Shown here: piece by piece, positions 6,640-20,196 of the stretch
How the letters are laid out: every line of letters starts with the position of its first letter
Position numbering within the stretch: the first letter of the stretch is position 1
Source: an uncultured Alistipes sp.
GTDB taxonomy: Bacteria; Bacteroidota; Bacteroidia; Bacteroidales; Rikenellaceae
Direction: 5' to 3'
Length of the DNA stretch: 32,825 nucleotides
NCBI GenBank assembly: GCA_947178025.1
Contig: CAMWWU010000006.1
Span: 1-32,825 of the forward strand
The notes under the pieces: model-generated
Told to the model about the DNA's origin: nothing
What the model saw: only the letters and a program-made list of their open reading frames with translations
The model's database searches: none
Program-made: the position numbers and the translations under genes

Positions 6640-7206
6640 TTACAGATAGATGGCGATTCCTGCCGCGGCCGAAAGGACGATCAGCAGGATGGGGTTGATC
6701 TTGCGGATCGACCCGATGAAGACGCCGGCGAAGAGCACCCAGCTCCAGGCGTCGATGAAGTTCCGTTCGCCGGGGGCTGCGTCGTGCGGGAAGATCAGCA
6801 GCAGAGCTGCCGATGCGATCATGCCGATCACCACGGGACGCATGCCCCGCATGGCTCCCTCGATCAGCGGGTTGTCTTTCAGCCTCAGGAAAAAGCGCGT
6901 GACGAGCAGCATCAGCGTCAGCGCCGGGAGGCAGACCGCAAGGGTCGCGATGACGGCGCCGAGAACGCCCGCTCCCGTTCCGCCGGCCTGCGAGCCGACG
7001 GTGTAGCCGACGTAGGTCGCCGAGTTGATGGCGATCGGTCCGGGAGTGATCTGCGACACGGCCACGATGTCGGCGAACTCGGCGTTGGTCATCCACCGGT
7101 GCTGCACGACCACCTCGTTCTGGATGAGCGACAGCATGGCGTAACCGCCCCCGAATCCGAAGAATCCGATTTTGAGATAGCTTACGAAGAGATGCCAGAA
7201 GATCAT
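6640..7206 (-). CDS. Chromate transporter (CHR family, short-chain), second of pair
   Basis: 188 aa; FLKIGFFGFGGGYAMLSLIQNEVV, SQITPGPIAINSATYVGY. Confidence 0.92.
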   Translation of the reverse strand: MIFWHLFVSYLKIGFFGFGGGYAMLSLIQNEVVVQHRWMTNAEFADIVAVSQITPGPIAINSATYVGYTVGSQAGGTGAGVLGAVIATLAVCLPALTLMLLVTRFFLRLKDNPLIEGAMRGMRPVVIGMIASAALLLIFPHDAAPGERNFIDAWSWVLFAGVFIGSIRKINPILLIVLSAAAGIAIYL

Positions 7207-7745
7207 TCGGCCGATTTTTTAGCGGTGAAGAGTGTCCATGCGATGCCTGCCGCGGCGGCCGCGATCAGGATCAGAATCGGCGACCAGCCCAATCCCCAGA
7301 CCGCGAGCGCCGTGGCGGCGATCACGAGATACATGGCCCGGTGCATGCCGCGGGCCAGCGAGAGCACCGGACCGACGATCAGCGCCACGACAGCCGGGCG
7401 CATCCCCTTGAACGCGGCGTCGACGACGGGGTTGTCGCGCACGTCGGTGAAGAAGAGGGCGATCAGCAGGATGATCGCGAACGACGGGACGACGACCCCG
7501 AGGATCGAGGCGACGGCGCCCGCGTAGCCGCGCATCTTGTAGCCGACGAAGACCGACGTATTGAGCGAAATGGGGCCCGGGGCCGACTGCGCGAGGGTCA
7601 GCAGGTCCAGAAATTCGCGTTCGGCGATCCAGCCTTTGACGTCGATCACCTCGCGGCGGATCAGCGGGATCATCGCGTAGCCTCCGCCGAAGGTGAAGAG
7701 TCCGATCTTGAAGAAACTCCAGAAAAGTCCGAAGAGTTGGCGCAT
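7203..7745 (-). CDS. Chromate transporter (CHR family, short-chain), first of pair
   Basis: Start CAT at 7743-7745: MRQLFGLFWSFFKIGLFTFGGGYAMIPLIRREVI...LAQSAPGPISLNTSVFVGYK; 4-nt overlap with next gene. Confidence 0.92.
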   Translation of the reverse strand: MRQLFGLFWSFFKIGLFTFGGGYAMIPLIRREVIDVKGWIAEREFLDLLTLAQSAPGPISLNTSVFVGYKMRGYAGAVASILGVVVPSFAIILLIALFFTDVRDNPVVDAAFKGMRPAVVALIVGPVLSLARGMHRAMYLVIAATALAVWGLGWSPILILIAAAAAGIAWTLFTAKKSAE

Positions 7746-7747
7746 GG

Positions 7748-8512
7748 TTATTCTCGTTGTTTTTTGCCCAGCAGCGTGCGCAGTCCGTCGATGAAGACCA
7801 TCGGGTGCGTCGGGGCGCCGGGAAGCCACAGGTCGACGCGGTGCCGCTCGAAGAACGAGCGGTCGACGGCTCGGCTTCGGGCGAAGAGCCCTCCCGAGCA
7901 CGCTTCCGAGCCGCAGGCGACGAGTAGCTTGGGCTCGGCCACGGCGTCGTAGCAGATCTGCAAAGCCTCTGCCATATTCGTCGACACGGGACCCGTGATC
8001 ACCACGCCGTCGGCATGGCGCGGCGACGCGGTGAAGCCGATGCCGAAGCGGCCGAGGTCGAAGTTGACGTTGCCCGTGGCGCCGAGCTCCATCTCGATCG
8101 AGGCGTCGCCGCCGGCCGAGACTTCGCGCAGTTGCAGCGCCTGCGAGAAGCAGCGGCTGAGTTCGGGACGCACCGCGGAGGTGTCGAACGCGACGCACCG
8201 GTCGCCCGGACGCACGACGAGCCCCTCGCGCGTGGGCGAGCCGAGGCGGTAGTCGTTGGTGAAGCGGATGTTGCGCGGAGCCCGGCGGGCGCATTCGCCG
8301 CAGAAGAGGCAGCGCCCCAGGTCGAGGGCGAACGGCGTGACGGAGAGTGCCCCCGTGGGGCAGATCGCCGCCGCCTGCTCCAGCTCCGCGGTGTCGCCGG
8401 TGGCGGTGAGTTCGGGACGTCCCCGGAACTCCGGGGTCAGCTCCACGGCGTCGAGATCGGGTATGGCCTGCCGGCCGTGGCTGCGCAGGACTTTTATCTT
8501 GGGGAGTATCAT
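7748..8512 (-). CDS. Fused ferredoxin-domain + NuoB/HycG-like subunit of an energy-converting-hydrogenase-related complex, most cluster ligands missing
   Basis: 254 aa. HyfH-like N-terminus (GRPELT...ICPTGAL...GRCLFCGECARRAP), then HyfI/HycG-like LQLREVSAGGDASIEMELGATGNVNFDLGRFGIGFTASPRHADGVVITGPVSTNM...VACGSEACSGG...PGAPTHP. Confidence 0.85.
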   Translation of the reverse strand: MILPKIKVLRSHGRQAIPDLDAVELTPEFRGRPELTATGDTAELEQAAAICPTGALSVTPFALDLGRCLFCGECARRAPRNIRFTNDYRLGSPTREGLVVRPGDRCVAFDTSAVRPELSRCFSQALQLREVSAGGDASIEMELGATGNVNFDLGRFGIGFTASPRHADGVVITGPVSTNMAEALQICYDAVAEPKLLVACGSEACSGGLFARSRAVDRSFFERHRVDLWLPGAPTHPMVFIDGLRTLLGKKQRE

Positions 8513-8557: not shown

Positions 8558-10090
8558 TTAAAGGTCGTGTCCGCAGTAGGAGAGGTTGAAGCTCTTGTTG
8601 CAGATCGGGAAGTCGGAGATCCCCTCGCCGCGCACGGCCAGGGCGAGCGCCATCCAGTTGTGGAGGCTCGGATCCTTGATGCGGTCGGCGACGATCCGGC
8701 CTTCGGGGTCGGTGATCGCGACGTGGCAGATCTCGCCGCGCCACCCCTCGACCAGTCCGAAAGCGAGCGACGAGGGTGCCAGCGGCGCCGCGTAGTCGGG
8801 AGCCGGGCACGGCGAGGGGCCGGCGGCGTATTTCTGTTCGTAGATCTCCAGCAGCCGGTCGACGTAGCGGGCCGACTGGAGCACCTCGCGGCAGCGGACC
8901 GTCAGGCGGGCCATCACGTCGCCCTGCGTTTTGACGACCGGTTCGTGGCTGATGTGCTTGGCGAAGACGCCCCATGGATGCGTGGCCCGCAGGTCGCGCG
9001 CGAGGCCGCTCGCGCGGGCCGCCTGCCCGACGCCGCCGATGGCCGCCATCTGGTCGCGCGGCACGATGCCGCACTGCTCGAAGCGGGCCAGCAGCGAGGG
9101 AGACGACTTGATGTCGCGGCGCACCTCGTCGTAGCGGCGGGCGATCTCGGCCACGTTGCGGCGGATCATCGCCGACTTCTCGGCCGTGAGCGGGTGGTCG
9201 GTGCCGTGGGGGCGGATCAGCCCCTTGCCGAAGCGGTTGCCGCACCACGCCTGCGTGGTGTTGATCGTCATCGTGCGCAGCGCCTCGCACGCCACCTGCC
9301 CCAGCTGATAACCCACGTCCATCGACAGGGCGCCCGTGTCGGCGATCTGCATCGCCATGCGTTCGAGTTCGAGGGCGATGCCGCGCTCGCGGTCGAGCTG
9401 TGCGGGGCGTTCGTGGCCGGAGAGTTTCTCGACGGCTTCGGTGAACGCCGTGGCGTGCGCTACGGCGCTGTCGCCCGCGACGGCCTCGGCCAGACACGTC
9501 TGGCGCAGCCGGTTGCCGGTAGCCGCGAACTCGTGCTCCACGCCCCGGTGCTGATAGCCGAGGGCGATTTCGAGATGCAGCACCTGCTCGCCGCTGCAGA
9601 TGAAGCGGAAGGCGCCCGGCTCGATGATGCCGGCGTGGATCGGCCCGACGTTCACCTCGTGGAGCGATCCGCCCTGCATCGTGTAGAACGGGTAGTTGTC
9701 CATCGAGCCGGAGCGGTCGTAGCGGTCGAACGGAAAGCGCAGCGGCTTGGGCCAGGGCATGCCGTCGAAGCGGATGCCGTAGCGCTCGGCGATGTCGCGC
9801 TCGAAGGGATGCAGCTGCGGATGGATCGCCGTGAGCGAGGGAAGCACGCCCTCGTCGTAGTACTCCATGACGTGCGAGGCGACGAGCACCTGCGACGTCG
9901 CGTCGTCGAGCAGCAGGCAGTAGAAGCGCATGCGTCCCTCCTCGGGGAGGGCGAAGTAGTGCGCCACGTGGTAGCGCGGGTCGGCGAGTTTCTCCGCGAG
10001 GTCGGCGTGGAACTCGGCGTAGGGGACCTCCGGAATGTCGCGCAGCGGAATGGCTGCCGCCGTATTGTCGGTGATGTGGTATGTCATCAT
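8558..10090 (-). CDS. HycE/HyfG/NuoCD-like large subunit lacking NiFe ligands (Ehr-type)
   Basis: About 510 aa; ATGA overlap with upstream gene. GPIHAGIIEPGAFRF, LGYQHRGVEHEF, L1-equivalent AEAVAGDSAVAHATAF, C-terminus DFPICNKSFNLSYCGHDL. Confidence 0.87.
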   Translation of the reverse strand: MMTYHITDNTAAAIPLRDIPEVPYAEFHADLAEKLADPRYHVAHYFALPEEGRMRFYCLLLDDATSQVLVASHVMEYYDEGVLPSLTAIHPQLHPFERDIAERYGIRFDGMPWPKPLRFPFDRYDRSGSMDNYPFYTMQGGSLHEVNVGPIHAGIIEPGAFRFICSGEQVLHLEIALGYQHRGVEHEFAATGNRLRQTCLAEAVAGDSAVAHATAFTEAVEKLSGHERPAQLDRERGIALELERMAMQIADTGALSMDVGYQLGQVACEALRTMTINTTQAWCGNRFGKGLIRPHGTDHPLTAEKSAMIRRNVAEIARRYDEVRRDIKSSPSLLARFEQCGIVPRDQMAAIGGVGQAARASGLARDLRATHPWGVFAKHISHEPVVKTQGDVMARLTVRCREVLQSARYVDRLLEIYEQKYAAGPSPCPAPDYAAPLAPSSLAFGLVEGWRGEICHVAITDPEGRIVADRIKDPSLHNWMALALAVRGEGISDFPICNKSFNLSYCGHDL

Positions 10091-11484
10091 AAGGTTGCGA
10101 TTTGGGAGATGAGCTCCGTCAGGATTTCGGGACGCCAGAGGCCCAGCGCGATGGCGGCTCCCAGCGGCACGAGCGCCGACCACGAGAGTGCCCGGTCGGC
10201 TTTCGAGGGGTGCAGCTGATCCTGGTTGGGCTGGTAGCAGAGGCGGATCATGCGCGAGCAGAACGAGTAGATGACGATGCAGACCAGCAGAATCATGGCT
10301 GCCATCACCCACCAGTTGCTCTCGGCCACGACCTGCTTGAGGATCAGCAGCTCCGAGAAGAAGAGCGGCGAGGGCGGGAAGGCCACCAGCACGACCATGC
10401 CCGTGAGCAGGCCGACGGCCCCCACGCGGTTGATGCGGATGTAGTCGCCCAGGCGGTTGATGCGGTATCCGTCGTAGACCTGACGCACGACGGCCATCTG
10501 GAGAAAGAGGCTGCTCTTGACGAGCGTGTGGCAGGCGACGTGGAAGATCGCCGCCCAGACGCCGATGCCGCCGATACCCAGGCCGATGGCCGCGATGCCC
10601 ATGTTCTCGACCGTGGAGTAGGAGAGGAAGCGTTTGTAGTTGTTCGTGCGGCGGAGGAACAGTGCGCCGATGACGAGCGACAGCACGCCCGTGAGCAGCA
10701 GGACGTTGCGCACCCAGGGGAAGACTTCCGAGGCGGCCAGGAGCTTGTAGACGCGGAAGACGGCCAGAAATCCGGCGTTGACCAGACCCGTCGAGATCAG
10801 CGCCGAGCCGGGCGACGGCGCCGCGAAGTTGGCGTCGACGCCGACCGTGTAGAGCGGGAAGAGCTCGACCTTGCAGCTGTATCCGCAGAGGATCAGCAGG
10901 AACGCAGTCTTCAGGTAGAGCGGGTTGGCGGCCGGAATCGCAGCGGCGACGGCTTCGTAGGAGAGCGAGTCGCACTTCGTGGCGGCGCACAGCAGCAGGA
11001 TACCGAGGTAGGCCACGGCGATGCCCGTCGAGCAGACGAAGAGGTATTTCCACGCCGCTTCGAGCGCCTGCGCCGTGCGGCGGTGGTAGACGATGCCCGC
11101 CGAGCAGAGGGTCGTGGCTTCGAGCAGGATCCACGTCACGGCGAGGTTGTTCGAAAAGTAGGCCCCGGCGACGGCCGTCGTCAGGAGCATCAGCAGCGCC
11201 GAGTAGGTGCGCGTCTGGCGGATGTCGCTCCCCTTGAGGTAGGCCTCGGAGTGGAAGTAGGCGAAGGCCGAGACGACCGTGAGCAGCAGGTAGAAGAGCG
11301 TGCCTGCGGCGTCGAAGGCGAATACGCCGGCCGAGGTCGTGCCGTAGAGCCCGCAGAGGATCCGGACGGCGAAGGCGGCCTGCACGGCGTAGAACGCCGC
11401 ACCGGCGGCGAAGAGCTGCCGTTCGCTGCGCAGCAGGAACGCCGAGGCGGCGATCAGGATGCTGAGTGTAAGATAAACGATCAT
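10087..11484 (-). CDS. HyfF/NuoN/MrpD-like antiporter-type membrane subunit
   Basis: 465 aa polytopic; WILLEATTLCSAG (TM5 Glu), GYSCKVELFPLYTVGVDANFAAPSPGSALIST (TM7 Lys region), KRFLSYSTVENMG. Confidence 0.87.
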   Translation of the reverse strand: MIVYLTLSILIAASAFLLRSERQLFAAGAAFYAVQAAFAVRILCGLYGTTSAGVFAFDAAGTLFYLLLTVVSAFAYFHSEAYLKGSDIRQTRTYSALLMLLTTAVAGAYFSNNLAVTWILLEATTLCSAGIVYHRRTAQALEAAWKYLFVCSTGIAVAYLGILLLCAATKCDSLSYEAVAAAIPAANPLYLKTAFLLILCGYSCKVELFPLYTVGVDANFAAPSPGSALISTGLVNAGFLAVFRVYKLLAASEVFPWVRNVLLLTGVLSLVIGALFLRRTNNYKRFLSYSTVENMGIAAIGLGIGGIGVWAAIFHVACHTLVKSSLFLQMAVVRQVYDGYRINRLGDYIRINRVGAVGLLTGMVVLVAFPPSPLFFSELLILKQVVAESNWWVMAAMILLVCIVIYSFCSRMIRLCYQPNQDQLHPSKADRALSWSALVPLGAAIALGLWRPEILTELISQIATL

Positions 11485-11488
11485 GGCG

Positions 11489-12118
11489 TCAGTCTTTTAC
11501 GTTGGTGAGCGAATCCGCGTCGTCGGCGTGGATCTTGTGGTCGATGCGCGTGAAGAAGATGCCCAGCATGAGCACCGACATGAGGATGTCGAGCAGGATG
11601 GCGATGTTGATCAGCAGCGGCATCTCGACGCCGATGGCCGTCGAGAAGAGGAATACGCCGTTCTCGATGACCAGGAATCCGACCATGTGCGAGAAGAGCC
11701 GCGAGCGCAGCACGATGAGCGTCAGACCGCTCAGCAGGGCGTAGAGCGCTACGGCGAAGAAGACCTGATCGACGGCGGAGTCGGCGATGCAGTAGGTGAG
11801 CGAAACGCTGACGGCGAGGGCCGTGAGCGAGAGGAGCAGCGATCCGAACTGCGACGAGCCGGAGGTCCGGACGCGGTTGATCTTCGTGCGGCGGATCACG
11901 GCGAAGAGGATCGCCGGGACCAGAATCGCCTTGAAGAGCAGCGTCTCGACCGAGATGAAGATCAGCTCGGCAGGGTGGATGGCGTGCAGCCGCAGCAGCG
12001 CCACGGCGAAGAGCAGCCACCCTTGCAGCGAAATGATCGATGCGAAATTGCGGAAGCGCTCGGTGATCGAGAGATAGACGAGCGTCACGACGTAGAGCAG
12101 TATGAGTGCGGCGATCAT
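11489..12118 (-). CDS. HyfE/NuoK-like membrane subunit
   Basis: 209 aa from MIAALILLYVVTLVYLSITERFRNF; GFLVIENGVFLFSTAIGVEMPLLINIAILLDILMSVLMLG; ATGA overlap with upstream gene at 12115-12118. Confidence 0.83.
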   Translation of the reverse strand: MIAALILLYVVTLVYLSITERFRNFASIISLQGWLLFAVALLRLHAIHPAELIFISVETLLFKAILVPAILFAVIRRTKINRVRTSGSSQFGSLLLSLTALAVSVSLTYCIADSAVDQVFFAVALYALLSGLTLIVLRSRLFSHMVGFLVIENGVFLFSTAIGVEMPLLINIAILLDILMSVLMLGIFFTRIDHKIHADDADSLTNVKD

Positions 12119-13023
12119 CGGATGACGAGATTTAGTTGCAGCAGGTAGCCCGTGAAGAAGACCAGGGCGGCCAGTACGGCGACGGTGAGTATGAACGTGG
12201 TGTTGCGGACGAGTTTGTTGCGGGCCTGCGTCGACTCGACGATGCCCACCGAGAGGCCGGTGAGCAGCACGGCGGCCGGCGCCGCGATCCACCAGCGGAG
12301 ACCCCAGGCGGCGACGGCGGCGTCGGCGGCGAGCATCGAGAGGGCGGCGGTCTTGAGCCAGCCGGCGATCTTGATGTACGCGAGGTCCGTGCCGCAATAG
12401 TCGAGGCACATCACTTCGTGGATCATCGTCAGCTCGAGGTGCGTGCGCGGGTCGTCGACCGGTACGCGGCCGCTCTCGGTGAAGACGAGCTTCACGAGGA
12501 CGTAGGCCGCGAGCAGCAGTACGACCGTGAAGCGCAGCTCGGGGGCGAGGCTGAAGATCCACCCGAAGGAGGTGAAGCCCGTGACGAGCGCCAGCGTGGC
12601 CAGGATCAGCAGGAGCGCCGGTTCGGCCAGTGCGCCGTAGAGGGCTTCGCGGCTGGCGCCCATGCCCTCGAACGGACTGCCCGTGTCGAGGGCCGCCAGT
12701 ACGAGCGCCACGCGCCCCAGCGCCAGCGTGTAGGCGAAGGCTACCAGGTCGCCGTCGAACGAGAGCACCGGAGGCAGGTCGCCCACGGGGATGAAGAGCA
12801 GCGCCGTGAGGGCTGCGCCGAGGTAGAACGACGGAGCGAGGCGGAAGAGCGCCGAGGTCGTCGTGGAGTAGACGGCCCCCTTGCGCAGGAGCAGCCGCAC
12901 GTCGTAGAGGTGTTGCAGGAACCGGATGCCCTTGCGCCCCGCGAGGCGTGCCCGCGTGCGGTTGATGAGGCCCGGAATGGCCAGGGCTGCCAGGAGCAGC
13001 AGCAGGAGATTGAGCGCTTTCAT
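12115..13023 (-). CDS. HyfC/NuoH-like membrane subunit
   Basis: 302 aa; FTESGRVPVDDPRTHLELTMIHEVMCLDYCGTDLAYIKIAGWLK, the NuoH/HycD family signature. Confidence 0.88.
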   Translation of the reverse strand: MKALNLLLLLLAALAIPGLINRTRARLAGRKGIRFLQHLYDVRLLLRKGAVYSTTTSALFRLAPSFYLGAALTALLFIPVGDLPPVLSFDGDLVAFAYTLALGRVALVLAALDTGSPFEGMGASREALYGALAEPALLLILATLALVTGFTSFGWIFSLAPELRFTVVLLLAAYVLVKLVFTESGRVPVDDPRTHLELTMIHEVMCLDYCGTDLAYIKIAGWLKTAALSMLAADAAVAAWGLRWWIAAPAAVLLTGLSVGIVESTQARNKLVRNTTFILTVAVLAALVFFTGYLLQLNLVIR

Positions 13024-13025
13024 CG

Positions 13026-15023
13026 TCAGAGCAGATTAAGAATCGAAAGCAGGAATACGAGGGTGAGGAACGCCAGGGCGAAGAGCACGTAGTGGTTGAT
13101 CTTGCCCGTGCGGAGCCGCATGACGCGGCCGTTGATCATGCGCAGCGCCTCGACCCACCAGGCCGAGAAGAGCCGGCCGATGCGGTCGCGGTGACGGATG
13201 TCGAAGCGGTGCGCCGCGGGGAAGATCTCCCCCTTGCTGACGGGCGATCCCTCGCCGCTGTCGTGCGTCAGCGGGCGGGCGATGGATTGCAGCCCCTCGG
13301 AGTAGGATTCGCCCGTGTACTGCATCCGGATGTTGGGGGCCGTGAAGCCGCAGCCCCACGTGGGACCCTCGGCGACGGTGCGGCCGCGCAGCAGCCGGGC
13401 GCGGAGCAGGATCAGGCAGGCGATGACGGCGACCAGAATCCAGACCGTGCGGCAGAGCATCGTGAAGGTGGGCGGGAGAGCCCCTTCAGCCGTTGCGGCG
13501 GCATCGGGCAGCAGCACTTCGGCGGCCCGCGTCACGACGGCGACGGCTCCCTGCGGAAAGAGGCCCACGGCGAGGATGCCCGCCAGCGGCAGGGCCATGG
13601 CCGCGATGCGCACGCCGTCGACTTCGGAGGCTTCGGCGACCTCGTGCGTGCGGGGCGAGCCGAGGAACACCGTGCCGAAGAGTTTCGTGAAGGCCAGCAC
13701 GACGATGCCGCCGATGAGCGCCAGCGCCACGAGGCCCGCCATGGCGGCGAGCGGCTGTTGGCCGGCAGCGATGCCGTCGAGCATGCCGAGGTAGATCAGC
13801 AGCTCCGATACGAATCCGTTGAGCGGCGGCAGGGCGCAGATGGCCGCCGTGCCCGTGAGGAAGAGCAGCGCCGTGACGGGCATGTGCTTCGCCAGACCGC
13901 CCAGGGCGTCGAGCGACGTGGTGTGGGTCTTCGAGAGGACGTTGCCGGCCCCGAAGAAGAGCAGCGACTTGAAGAGCGAGTGGTTGACGGTGTGGAGCAG
14001 CGCTCCGGCCAGACCGCAGAGCGCCATGATGCGGAAGCCTTCGGCCATGCCCAGTGCGGCGATGCCCAGACCGATCAGGATGACGCCCACGTTCTCGATC
14101 GAGGAGTAGGCCAGCAGGCGTTTGATGTCGTTCTGCGAGGCGGCGAGCATCACGCCCCAGAGGCCCGTGACGATGCCTGCGCCGAGCAGGATCAGTCCAG
14201 CGGTGTGGAGCGTCGGGAGGTCGGCCAGCTGCTGCATGACGCGCAGGATGCCGTAGACGCCCGTCTTGATCATCACGCCCGACATCAGAGCCGAGATGTG
14301 CGACGGGGCCGCGGGATGGGCCTCCGGCAGCCAGACGTGCATCGGGAAGAGGCCCGCCTTCATGCCGAAGCCGAGCAGGAAGAGGACGAACAGCGGCAGC
14401 TGCTGCTCGGGATGCGCGGCCAGACACTCGCCCAGCGCGCCGAACGTGGCGCTGCCCGTAGCGACGTCGACGCGCACGAAGCCGATGAGCAGCAGCACGA
14501 AGCCGATGTGCATCATGATGAGGTAGGAGAGCGCGGCGCGGCGCACCTCCCGCCGTTCGGCGTCGAAGAGGATCAGCAGGAACGACGCGATGGTCATCAG
14601 CTCCCAGAAAAAGAGGAACGAGTAGCCGCCGTCGCAGAGCACGACGCCCAGCATGGCGTAGCACATCGTCACCAGCGAGGTGTAGTGCAGCGAAACGTGG
14701 GCAGGGGATTTGCTGTCGAGGTAGTGCCGCAGATACCCTTGCGAGTAGAGCACGGCGGCGACCGAACCGATCGAGATGACGAGTGCGAAGAGGGCCGAGA
14801 GGGGGTCCATCGAGGCGGTTTCGCCGTCGAAAGGCATTCCTTCGAAGAGCCACAGCCGCGAGCGGACGCCGCAGGCCAGCACCCGGACGGCCTCGGTCGA
14901 GGCGGCCAGGGCGCCGACGGCGGTCAGGGCCAGCGAGACCCACGCCTTGGCCCGCAGGGGCACGGCGAAGATCAGGGCTACGACCGCCGCGAAGGCGATG
15001 AGCGAATAGAGATAGAATAACAT
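13026..15023 (-). CDS. HyfB/NuoL/MrpA-like antiporter-type membrane subunit
   Basis: Start CAT 15021-15023 (MLFYLYSLIAFAAVV); FFWELMTI, LGFGMKAGLFPMHVWLPEAHPAAPSHISALMSGVMIKTGVYG, KRLLAYSSIENVG. Confidence 0.9.
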   Translation of the reverse strand: MLFYLYSLIAFAAVVALIFAVPLRAKAWVSLALTAVGALAASTEAVRVLACGVRSRLWLFEGMPFDGETASMDPLSALFALVISIGSVAAVLYSQGYLRHYLDSKSPAHVSLHYTSLVTMCYAMLGVVLCDGGYSFLFFWELMTIASFLLILFDAERREVRRAALSYLIMMHIGFVLLLIGFVRVDVATGSATFGALGECLAAHPEQQLPLFVLFLLGFGMKAGLFPMHVWLPEAHPAAPSHISALMSGVMIKTGVYGILRVMQQLADLPTLHTAGLILLGAGIVTGLWGVMLAASQNDIKRLLAYSSIENVGVILIGLGIAALGMAEGFRIMALCGLAGALLHTVNHSLFKSLLFFGAGNVLSKTHTTSLDALGGLAKHMPVTALLFLTGTAAICALPPLNGFVSELLIYLGMLDGIAAGQQPLAAMAGLVALALIGGIVVLAFTKLFGTVFLGSPRTHEVAEASEVDGVRIAAMALPLAGILAVGLFPQGAVAVVTRAAEVLLPDAAATAEGALPPTFTMLCRTVWILVAVIACLILLRARLLRGRTVAEGPTWGCGFTAPNIRMQYTGESYSEGLQSIARPLTHDSGEGSPVSKGEIFPAAHRFDIRHRDRIGRLFSAWWVEALRMINGRVMRLRTGKINHYVLFALAFLTLVFLLSILNLL

Positions 15024-15051
15024 GCTTATGATGGTGTTGTACGTGTCGTGG

Positions 15052-15771
15052 TCAGGGTTTTGCATTGACGACCGAGAACATCACCGTCGCGGCGACCGCG
15101 GCGGTTTCGGTGCGGAGGCGCTGCGTGCCGAGGGTGATCTCCTCGAATCCGCGGGCCAGTGCGAAGTCGATCTCGGCGGGCGAGAAATCTCCCTCGGGGC
15201 CGATCAGGATCATGGCCGCTTCGCCCGGGCGGAGGGTCTGCGCCAGATAGCTCTTGCCCGCCTCGGAGCGTGCGGCGGCGCAGTGGGCGATCAGCTTGCG
15301 CCCCTCGAACGGGGCTGCGACGGCCTCGCGGAACGGCGTGAGCGGATGGAGCTCGGGCCGGTAGGCCTTGAGCGACTGTTTCATGGCCGCCGTGACGACC
15401 TTGCCTCCGCGTTCGGGTTTGAAGACGCGGCGTTCGCTGTGCTCCGTTTCGAGCGGGAGGATCTCCCCGACGCCGATCTCGGTGGCCTTTTCGAGGAACC
15501 ATTCGAACCGGTCGGCGTTCTTGGTCGGCGCCACGGCCATCACCAGATGCGCCGGGAGGGGTTCGAAGTCGTGCTGCGCTTCGACGACGCGCACCGTGCA
15601 GCGGCGCGCGTCGGCCGTGACCAGTTCGCAGCGGTAGAGCGTGCCCCGGCCGTCGGTGATGTGGATGCTCGCCCCGACGCCGAGACGCAGCACGCGCACG
15701 CAGTGCTTCGACTCCTCCTCGCCGAGCGTGTGTTCGGGAGGCGTGAGGTCGGGGGCGTAAAATAGTTGCAT
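15052..15771 (-). CDS. rsmE: 16S rRNA (uracil1498-N3)-methyltransferase RsmE
   Basis: 239 aa; MAVAPTKNADRFEWFLEKATEIGVGEILPLETEHSE, ILIGPEGDFSPAEIDFALARGFEEITLGTQRLRTETAAVAA. Confidence 0.95.
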   Translation of the reverse strand: MQLFYAPDLTPPEHTLGEEESKHCVRVLRLGVGASIHITDGRGTLYRCELVTADARRCTVRVVEAQHDFEPLPAHLVMAVAPTKNADRFEWFLEKATEIGVGEILPLETEHSERRVFKPERGGKVVTAAMKQSLKAYRPELHPLTPFREAVAAPFEGRKLIAHCAAARSEAGKSYLAQTLRPGEAAMILIGPEGDFSPAEIDFALARGFEEITLGTQRLRTETAAVAATVMFSVVNAKP

Positions 15772-15866: not shown

Positions 15867-18041
15867 ATGAAACGTATCGCAGGATTATTCACAACACTTC
15901 TTTTGCTTATGACTGTCGTATCGTGCCGAAACGGGCATCAGAGCGGGGAAAATCCCTTTTTCACGGAGTGGGACACGCCCTACGGCGTGCCGCCGTTCGA
16001 CCGGATTCGTGCCGAACACTACCTGCCCGCATTCGAGCGGGCCATGTCGCTGCACGAGGCGGAGATCGACGCCATCGTCACCAACAACGACGAGCCGACG
16101 TTCGAGAACGTCATCCTCGCCTACGACGATTCGGGCCGCATGCTCGAACAGGTGTCGCTGGTCTTCGGCATGCTGTGCGGGGCCGAGACGACGCCCGAGT
16201 TGCAGGCTCTCGAAGAGCAGGTGATGCCCCGTCTGGCGGCCCATGCCGACCGGATCCGGCTCGACGAACGGCTCTTCGAGAAGGTGCGGCAGGTCTACGA
16301 CAACCGCGTGCGCTTCGAGCTCGACGCCGAGCAGAGCCGCCTGCTTCAGAAGACCTACGACGGCTTCGTGCGTGCCGGAGCGCTGCTCGATGCCGAGCGG
16401 AAGGAGCTGCTCAAGCGGATCAACGAGGAGCTGTCGGTCGCTTCGGTGAAGTTCGGCAACAACCTGCTTGCCGAGAACAACGACTTCGTAATGATGCTCG
16501 GGGCCGACGAGCTGGACGGACTGCCCTCGGGCGTCCGCGACCAGGCCCGCGAAAAGGCGCAGGAGCTGGGCGAGAAGAACAAGTGGGCTTTCACGCTGCA
16601 CAAGCCGAGCCTGCTGCCGTTTCTGACCTACTCGAACCGCCGCGACCTGCGCGAACGCCTCTACAAGGCCTATCTGAACCGCGGAAATAACGGCAACGAG
16701 AACGACAACAAACAGCTGGTCAACGATTTCGTTCGTCTGCGGACGGAGAAGGCCCACCTGCTGGGCTATCCCTCCTATGCCGCTTATGTCACGGCCGACG
16801 AGATGGCCCGCACGCCCGAGGCGGTTTACGCCCTTCTGGAGGAGATCTGGACCCCGGCGCTCGAACGGGCGAAGGGCGAACTGGCGGAGATGAAGCCCCT
16901 CTTCGAGAAGGATAACCCGGGTCAGGAGTTCGCCTCCTGGGATTGGTGGTACTACGCCGAGAAGGTGCGCAAGCAGAACTACTCGCTCGACGAGGAGATG
17001 CTGCGACCCTACTTCTCGCTGTCGAACGTGCAGGACGGCATCTTCTTCCTGGCCAACCGCCTCTACGGCATTACGTTCCGGCCGATCTCGGTGCCCGTCT
17101 ACCACGCCGAAGTTTCGGCCTACGAGGTGCTCGACACCGACGGTTCGCACCTCGGCGTACTCTATTTCGACTACTTCCCGCGCGCCGGCAAGAGCCAGGG
17201 CGCCTGGTGCGGCAACTACGTGGAGCAACGCTACGAGAACGGCGAGCGCGTGGCGCCCGTGGTGTCGATCGTCGCCAACTTCACGCGTCCGACGGCCGGA
17301 GCTCCCGCCCTCTTGACGCTCGACGAGACGGAGACCCTCTTCCACGAGTTCGGACACGCCCTGCACTTCCTTTTCCATGACGTGAAGTACCGCGGTCTGT
17401 CGGAGGTCGAGGGCGACTTCGTGGAGCTCCCCTCGCAGGTGATGGAGAACTGGGCGTTCGAACCCGAGATGCTCAAGCACTACGCCGTGCACTATCGCAC
17501 CAACGAGGTCATCCCGCAGTATCTGGTCGAGAAGCTGCGCCGCAGCGAGCTCTTCAACCAGGGCTTCGCCACGACGGAGCTCATCGCCGCGTCGCTGTCG
17601 GATATGGACATACACTCGATGACCGAGTACGAACCCTTCGATCCGGTGGCTTTCGAGCGTCGGGCGCTGGCCGAACGCCGCGGTCTGATTCCCGAGATCG
17701 AGCCCCGCTACCGCTATCCCTACTTCGCCCACATCTTCAACGGCGGCTATTCGGCCGGCTACTACTTCTATACGTGGGCCGAGGTGCTCGACAAGGATGC
17801 TTTCGAGGCGTTCCGCGAGAGCGGCGATCTGTTCGACCGGCGCACGGCCGAGGCGTTCCGCCGCAAGCTGCTGGCCCGGGGCGGGTCGGAGGACGGCATG
17901 TCGCTCTACCGGGCGTTCCGCGGCAAGGAGCCCGACAAGCGGGCGATGCTGCGCGGCCGCGGTCTGTGGAGCGATCCCGAACCCGAGGAGGAGACCGGAA
18001 CGGAAACCGAAGCTGAAGCTGAAGCCGCCGCCGAGGAGTAA
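15867..18041 (+). CDS. M3 family metallopeptidase (peptidyl-dipeptidase Dcp-like), predicted lipoprotein
   Basis: 724 aa; signal MKRIAGLFTTLLLLMTVVSC; zinc motif HEFGHALH; EFASWDWWYYAEKVRKQNY; acidic C-terminal tail ETGTETEAEAEAAAEE. Confidence 0.93.
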   Translation: MKRIAGLFTTLLLLMTVVSCRNGHQSGENPFFTEWDTPYGVPPFDRIRAEHYLPAFERAMSLHEAEIDAIVTNNDEPTFENVILAYDDSGRMLEQVSLVFGMLCGAETTPELQALEEQVMPRLAAHADRIRLDERLFEKVRQVYDNRVRFELDAEQSRLLQKTYDGFVRAGALLDAERKELLKRINEELSVASVKFGNNLLAENNDFVMMLGADELDGLPSGVRDQAREKAQELGEKNKWAFTLHKPSLLPFLTYSNRRDLRERLYKAYLNRGNNGNENDNKQLVNDFVRLRTEKAHLLGYPSYAAYVTADEMARTPEAVYALLEEIWTPALERAKGELAEMKPLFEKDNPGQEFASWDWWYYAEKVRKQNYSLDEEMLRPYFSLSNVQDGIFFLANRLYGITFRPISVPVYHAEVSAYEVLDTDGSHLGVLYFDYFPRAGKSQGAWCGNYVEQRYENGERVAPVVSIVANFTRPTAGAPALLTLDETETLFHEFGHALHFLFHDVKYRGLSEVEGDFVELPSQVMENWAFEPEMLKHYAVHYRTNEVIPQYLVEKLRRSELFNQGFATTELIAASLSDMDIHSMTEYEPFDPVAFERRALAERRGLIPEIEPRYRYPYFAHIFNGGYSAGYYFYTWAEVLDKDAFEAFRESGDLFDRRTAEAFRRKLLARGGSEDGMSLYRAFRGKEPDKRAMLRGRGLWSDPEPEEETGTETEAEAEAAAEE

Positions 18042-18078: not shown

Positions 18079-20196
<2,118 letters not shown>

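Follow-up and report, generated by a model that had tools for sequence, protein, structure and literature searches.

The locus and its complex I-like operon

The window, as we call the whole 32,825-nt stretch of DNA analysed here, carries a complex I-like operon of six genes, all on the minus strand. These encode HyfB-, HyfC-, HyfE- and HyfF-like membrane subunits, a fused 30 kDa/49 kDa large subunit and, as the sixth gene, a ferredoxin/NuoB fusion. The reading frames overlap by 4 nt at two junctions, and the six genes are found in identical order in distant relatives. The operon and the two genes that follow it are:

13026..15065, (-), HyfB/NuoL-like antiporter-type subunit; the start may be 15023
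12115..13023, (-), HyfC/NuoH-like membrane anchor
11489..12118, (-), HyfE-like membrane subunit (PRK11492, 4.5e-15)
10087..11484, (-), HyfF-like antiporter-type subunit
8558..10090, (-), large subunit, fused 30 kDa/49 kDa (HyfG/HycE/NuoCD-like)
7748..8512, (-), ferredoxin/NuoB fusion, 254 aa, ATG start
Fusion residues ~20-107, (-), ferredoxin half (HyfH/NuoI-like), matching HycF/HyfH/NuoI models and chains
Fusion residues ~125-250, (-), small-subunit half (HyfI/NuoB-like), matching NuoB/HycG/MbhJ over residues 137-250
7203..7745, (-), CHR (chromate-transporter-like) gene 1, starting 2 nt after the fusion stop codon
6640..7206, (-), CHR gene 2 (Pfam Chromate_transp), with a 4-nt overlap with gene 1

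Two M3-family peptidase genes (15867-18041 and 18079-20196) lie in tandem immediately upstream of the operon, on the opposite, plus strand.

An earlier note on this DNA had read 7748-8512 as a fused ferredoxin/NuoB-like frame, and both the frame and its residues are as described there. Pfam Oxidored_q6 matches residues 141-246 of the fusion (1.5e-16). No NCBIfam model matches the protein above its cut-off; thus, the fusion has no named family in NCBIfam. The structure prediction that the earlier note had proposed was carried out with AlphaFold2 on the window protein and 56 homologues, and it yielded one confident fold (pLDDT 91, pTM 0.88). The NuoB half of this model superposes on MbhJ (6cfw_J), from the P. 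furiosus hydrogenase, with a TMt of 0.83 and an rmsd of 2.3 Å, and also matches HycG (7z0s_G).

The cysteine motifs of the fusion are selectively altered. Motif I reads AAAICP, in which C51, the fourth cysteine of the motif, is the only one left. Motif II reads C68LFC71GEC74 followed by RRAP, so that its fourth cysteine is absent. By the ligand pairing established for 2[4Fe-4S] ferredoxin folds and for NuoI, the retained set is N6b and the missing one N6a. Judged by the residues, C51, C68, C71 and C74 form a complete N6b-type [4Fe-4S] ligand set with complete spacing, for a putative cluster, and the N6a-type and N2-type sets are absent. The NuoB half reads GGDAS, CGSEACSGG and PGAPTHP at its altered motifs, and D136, I139, E203 and A233 stand in place of the N2 set. 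The sequence thus bears out the earlier claim that the four ligands of one N6b-like cluster are kept and the N6a-like and N2-type ligands are gone.

Two features had escaped the earlier note: two N2 cysteines are replaced by acids that are invariant as a class, and the large subunit has lost its NiFe cysteines. In the window large subunit, all four NiFe cysteines (two CxxC) are gone, their sites reading AVAGDSAVAH and NLSYCG. The same cysteines are missing in every large subunit that is paired with a fusion homologue. As for the membrane arm, the HyfC/NuoH-like anchor has the conserved acidic residues E183, D190, D191, E197 and E203, and the HyfB/NuoL-like subunit retains the conserved E155, K236, K267, H243, H358 and H362. 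The charged residues of these two subunits are conserved in both N2-bearing and N2-less classes. In the HyfF-like subunit, the TM7 motif HxWLPxAH of relatives is replaced by PLYTVGVDAN within residues 205-221.

Cluster ligands among homologues and their history

To place the window fusion, relatives were collected in genome sets covering the window's phylum and family as well as two other families; a named collection contributed the best 80 of its 508 relatives. Among the 170 distinct homologues scored, 170/170 have the whole N6b set (the fourth cysteine of motif I and cysteines one to three of motif II). All sets are present in 43, only N6a is lost or incomplete in 52, and both N6a and N2 are lost in 75; loss of N2 with N6a kept was found in 0/170. 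The score of one protein, L076, was settled by eye. All 75 proteins of the window's tier lack both sets, and the pattern, whose conservation the earlier note had proposed to check, is a conserved state of the clade. Homologues with every cysteine, which that note would have taken as a sign of strain-specific decay, do exist; however, they belong to other lineages, and the loss is not specific to a strain. The fusion itself, singled out there as notable, is unremarkable, since every one of the 170 homologues has it, those with all cysteines among them; in part this is built into the search, whose query was the fusion.

The N2 set is almost all-or-none, being either CCCC or D/E-x-D/E-(N/A/T/S/H); in the latter form, a cysteine persists at the second position in some cases. 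Among the N2-less proteins, 73 of which were aligned, residue 136 is aspartate in 72 and glutamate in 1, residue 203 is aspartate in 40 and glutamate in 33, and H236 is invariant (73/73), whereas positions 136 and 203 are cysteine in all 93 aligned N2-bearing proteins. The fourth former ligand, position 233, is N, A, T, S or H in the N2-less proteins, and position 139 is free to vary. Moreover, C51, C68, C71 and C74 are invariant in the 73 aligned N2-less relatives and conserved above 93% in the aligned N2-bearing ones, while the five other cysteines of the window fusion (106, 121, 187, 200 and 205) are not conserved, which argues against a chance pattern.

For the fusion gene, the eight closest pairs give a dN/dS of 0.05-0.20, and the median of all 125 pairs compared is 0.18; these ratios indicate that the gene is under purifying selection. 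Together with the replacement pattern, they point to a selected and maintained state. A single sequence could not have told such a state from strain-specific decay, a sequencing error or a pseudogene; however, the same pattern recurs in 75 distinct proteins of many genera, with open frames and dN/dS well below 1, which leaves that explanation a negligible chance. A single contaminated or misassembled source is likewise hard to reconcile with a pattern spread across so many independent genomes. The earlier suggestion of selection rather than random decay accordingly holds for the clade as a whole.

To follow the losses, trees of the large subunit plus the fusion were built with the cysteine columns removed. 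On these trees, N6a was lost about seven or more times and N2 once or twice, the N2-less proteins falling into a single group or two. L004 and L173, the closest relatives that bear N2, branch within the N2-less group, although the data do not reject one N2-less clade (p-AU 0.37). In this sample, in which the named collection is represented by the best 80 of 508 relatives, the N2-less members of known origin are Bacteroidota, including Saprospiraceae, Chitinophagaceae, Flavobacteriales, Bacteroidales MAGs and the window's own family. The earlier note had described the loss as ordered. This stands across the family, where N6a alone was lost repeatedly and N2 alone never; in contrast, no intermediate is seen in the window's lineage, since L004 and L173 keep all cluster sets. 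Ordered loss is thus a family-wide regularity, and no series of steps is visible in the lineage of the window.

Changes elsewhere in the complex were compared with the loss of N2. The TM7 motif HxWLPxAH of HyfF is kept in 52/56 N2-bearing relatives, but its replacement is common to the N2-bearing L173; similarly, L004 and L173 share W280, Q278 and R363 of the large subunit. Because N2-bearing relatives have them, these changes probably preceded the loss of N2, and the altered HyfF motif and the large-subunit residues are ruled out as its consequences. Since L173, and L004 wherever that locus is covered, have them while keeping N2, the HyfF motif and most large-subunit changes do not track the loss of N2. 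The only large-subunit change that tracks the loss of N2 is C453, and it does so imperfectly.

Two further observations concern other branches. Many of the Gastranaerophilales/Melainabacteria fusions (L119-L169) have partly decayed N6a sets (for example 0011, 0111 and 1001) with N2 and N6b intact, which reflects an independent and perhaps still continuing loss of N6a. The fusion of L178, a MAG titled Rikenella microfusus, is 63% identical at best, to that of the Chitinophagaceae MAG L176, and is not near the window's family, presumably Rikenellaceae; the title of this MAG may be wrong.

Relation to Ehr and other known complexes

Energy-converting hydrogenase-related (Ehr) complexes lack the NiFe-coordinating cysteines (PMC6349859, PMC10284858); they trace to Marreiros et al. 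2013, as cited in PMC9474812, and their function is stated as unknown (PMC10284858). The window operon combines homologues of the group 4 hydrogenase large and small subunits with NuoH-like and antiporter-like subunits, and its large subunit has lost the Ni- and Fe-coordinating cysteines. On these sequence grounds, the window complex is an Ehr complex by the published definition and not a hydrogenase. A HyfG-type hydrogenase, or hydrogenase activity, is ruled out by the loss of the NiFe cysteines in every large subunit examined.

The complex resembles other Ehr complexes in its subunit set, with a group 4-like large subunit devoid of NiFe cysteines, antiporter- and NuoH-type membrane subunits and a ferredoxin-type subunit. 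It differs in lacking the N2-type cluster and one ferredoxin cluster, and in its acidic N2 pocket; there is no relay to a proximal cluster of N2 type such as the remaining Ehr tiers of the census have. This absence makes it a variant within Ehr and does not exclude it, since an N2 relay lies outside the quoted published definition. No description of an N2-less Ehr complex was found in the literature searched, which covered papers other than the founding Ehr paper, so that an earlier mention is possible. On N2-less relatives or on Alistipes energy metabolism, the search returned nothing on point. The pattern is real, conserved and unusual, and the complex is of a known kind, Ehr, in a variant lacking N2 that was not found described in that literature.

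Compared with E. coli formate hydrogenlyase and hydrogenase 4 (Hyc/Hyf), the subunits are homologous and the gene order is B, C, E, F, G, H/I. However, HycF and HycG are separate proteins with three clusters and HycE carries NiFe (PMC9474812), whereas the window complex has one ligand set and no NiFe site; none of the four NiFe cysteines that characterize group 4 [NiFe] hydrogenases is present. With respiratory complex I (NuoB/I/CD/H/L/M/N/K), it shares the fold, the core subunits and the lack of a NiFe site. In contrast to complex I, it has no N2 ligands (CC...C...C), no N6a and no NuoEFG in the operon, and a hydrogenase-like VGPIHAG loop replaces the quinone-site motif.

Searches of the genome place the complex in a wider setting. 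NuoEFG were seen neither in the operon nor among the scanned flanking proteins, and no other 49 kDa homologue was found in the window's genome (assembly 89% complete). RnfC and NqrF are both encoded in that genome, above the family cut-offs. The Ehr complex is thus an additional complex in an organism that has other ion-pumping redox enzymes and in which complex I is apparently missing.

The membrane-bound complex MBS of P. furiosus (6u8y) is similar to the window complex in having lost the NiFe site and in joining its peripheral arm to a membrane arm that pumps ions. Three clusters are retained in MBS, and sulfur is reduced at its open-coordinated proximal cluster on three cysteines (PMC7684303). 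MBS thereby demonstrates that the superfamily can lose the NiFe site and remain an enzyme (PMC7684303), which gives some ground for regarding the window complex as an MBS-type sulfur reductase with an open-iron proximal cluster as catalyst. However, that cluster needs three cysteines (C28, C93 and C123 of MbsJ), and in every N2-less member no more than one of the four corresponding positions is a cysteine. With the proximal cluster gone, MBS-like catalysis is ruled out and a sulfur reductase of this type is highly improbable.

Possible function of an N2-less complex

It has long been asked how complex I couples the reduction of N2 to the pumping of ions. In both formate hydrogenlyase and complex I, electrons reach a chamber at the interface of the large, small and NuoH subunits through a chain of clusters spaced by less than 14 Å (PMC9474812). 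By the distances in formate hydrogenlyase, removal of N2 leaves a gap in this relay. The N6b-type cluster would then have no partner within normal tunnelling range toward that chamber, and electrons would no longer be passed to a substrate there. These features suggest an ion pump of the complex I type that has given up the usual electron-transfer mechanism. We consider it about an even chance that the fusion is the peripheral-arm Fe-S subunit of an N2-less Ehr complex in which no electrons reach the chamber and the membrane arm still moves ions. This is the most likely reading, and the ions would be H+ or Na+. Gating might depend on protonation, or on ligand or metal binding, at the acidic former N2 site, on the state of the lone cluster, or on both, in place of N2 reduction; the cluster itself may serve as a structural core, a redox sensor or an electron entry point. 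Two points weigh against this ion-pump reading. The modified TM7 motif of HyfF makes full ion translocation by the arm uncertain, and selection for an intact four-cysteine set is just as compatible with real electron transfer to a partner encoded outside this locus.

The latter point leads to a doubtful but serious alternative, that the complex is still a redox enzyme whose lone cluster takes electrons from a soluble donor and passes them to another acceptor, such as a metal ion held by D136/E203/H236 or a protein that docks on the face where N6a was lost. No homologue has lost the N6b set, and N6a was lost several times with N2 kept, so direct entry at N6b is evidently tolerated. The combination D/E, D/E and His is also a chemically plausible metal site, but position 139 is variable and the former ligand at 233 changes among five residues. 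Furthermore, no obvious gene for electron input or output recurs beside the operon in the loci listed.

Within the ion-pump reading, the N2 site may have become a carboxylate/histidine site (D/E136, D/E203, H236). Binding of a proton or of a divalent metal at this site would drive or gate the ion-pumping arm, and the pump would then be coupled to a process other than electron transfer to N2; we put this forward tentatively, as somewhat improbable. The acids could instead merely fill a cavity, in a relic whose peripheral arm persists solely to let the membrane arm assemble and whose cluster is purely structural. The successive losses of the NiFe, N6a and N2 sites do resemble attrition, and the complex has a patchy distribution; however, purifying selection and strict acids at 136 and 203 together with H236 exceed what filling would need, and a relic is unlikely.

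A conserved natural lineage that retains the pump architecture, with acids replacing N2, makes it possible to test directly which elements of the coupling depend on the cluster. In addition, the graded series of three, two and one clusters within one family is a means of tracing the stripping-down of a redox pump.

A concrete lead to the role of the Ehr complex comes from the transporter genes beside the operon. The two CHR proteins are 41% identical over 132 aa, and their genes are probably co-transcribed with the Ehr complex. A CHR pair adjoins the fusion in 24/53 loci of the window's family (loci with at least 600 bp downstream). In L004, L173 and L177, of the same wider clade, a SulP-family anion permease lies directly downstream of the fusion. 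Positions of SulP-family permeases directly downstream of the Ehr operon are:

L095:385-2052, SulP-family permease
L173:10772-12376, SulP-family permease
L177:10920-12539, SulP-family permease

CHR and SulP are both anion transporter families; thus, a role of Ehr tied to anion transport, or to its driving gradient, is worth testing. SulP-like genes also occur upstream of the operon in several cysteine-complete loci, and in L099, L100, L104-L106 and L179.
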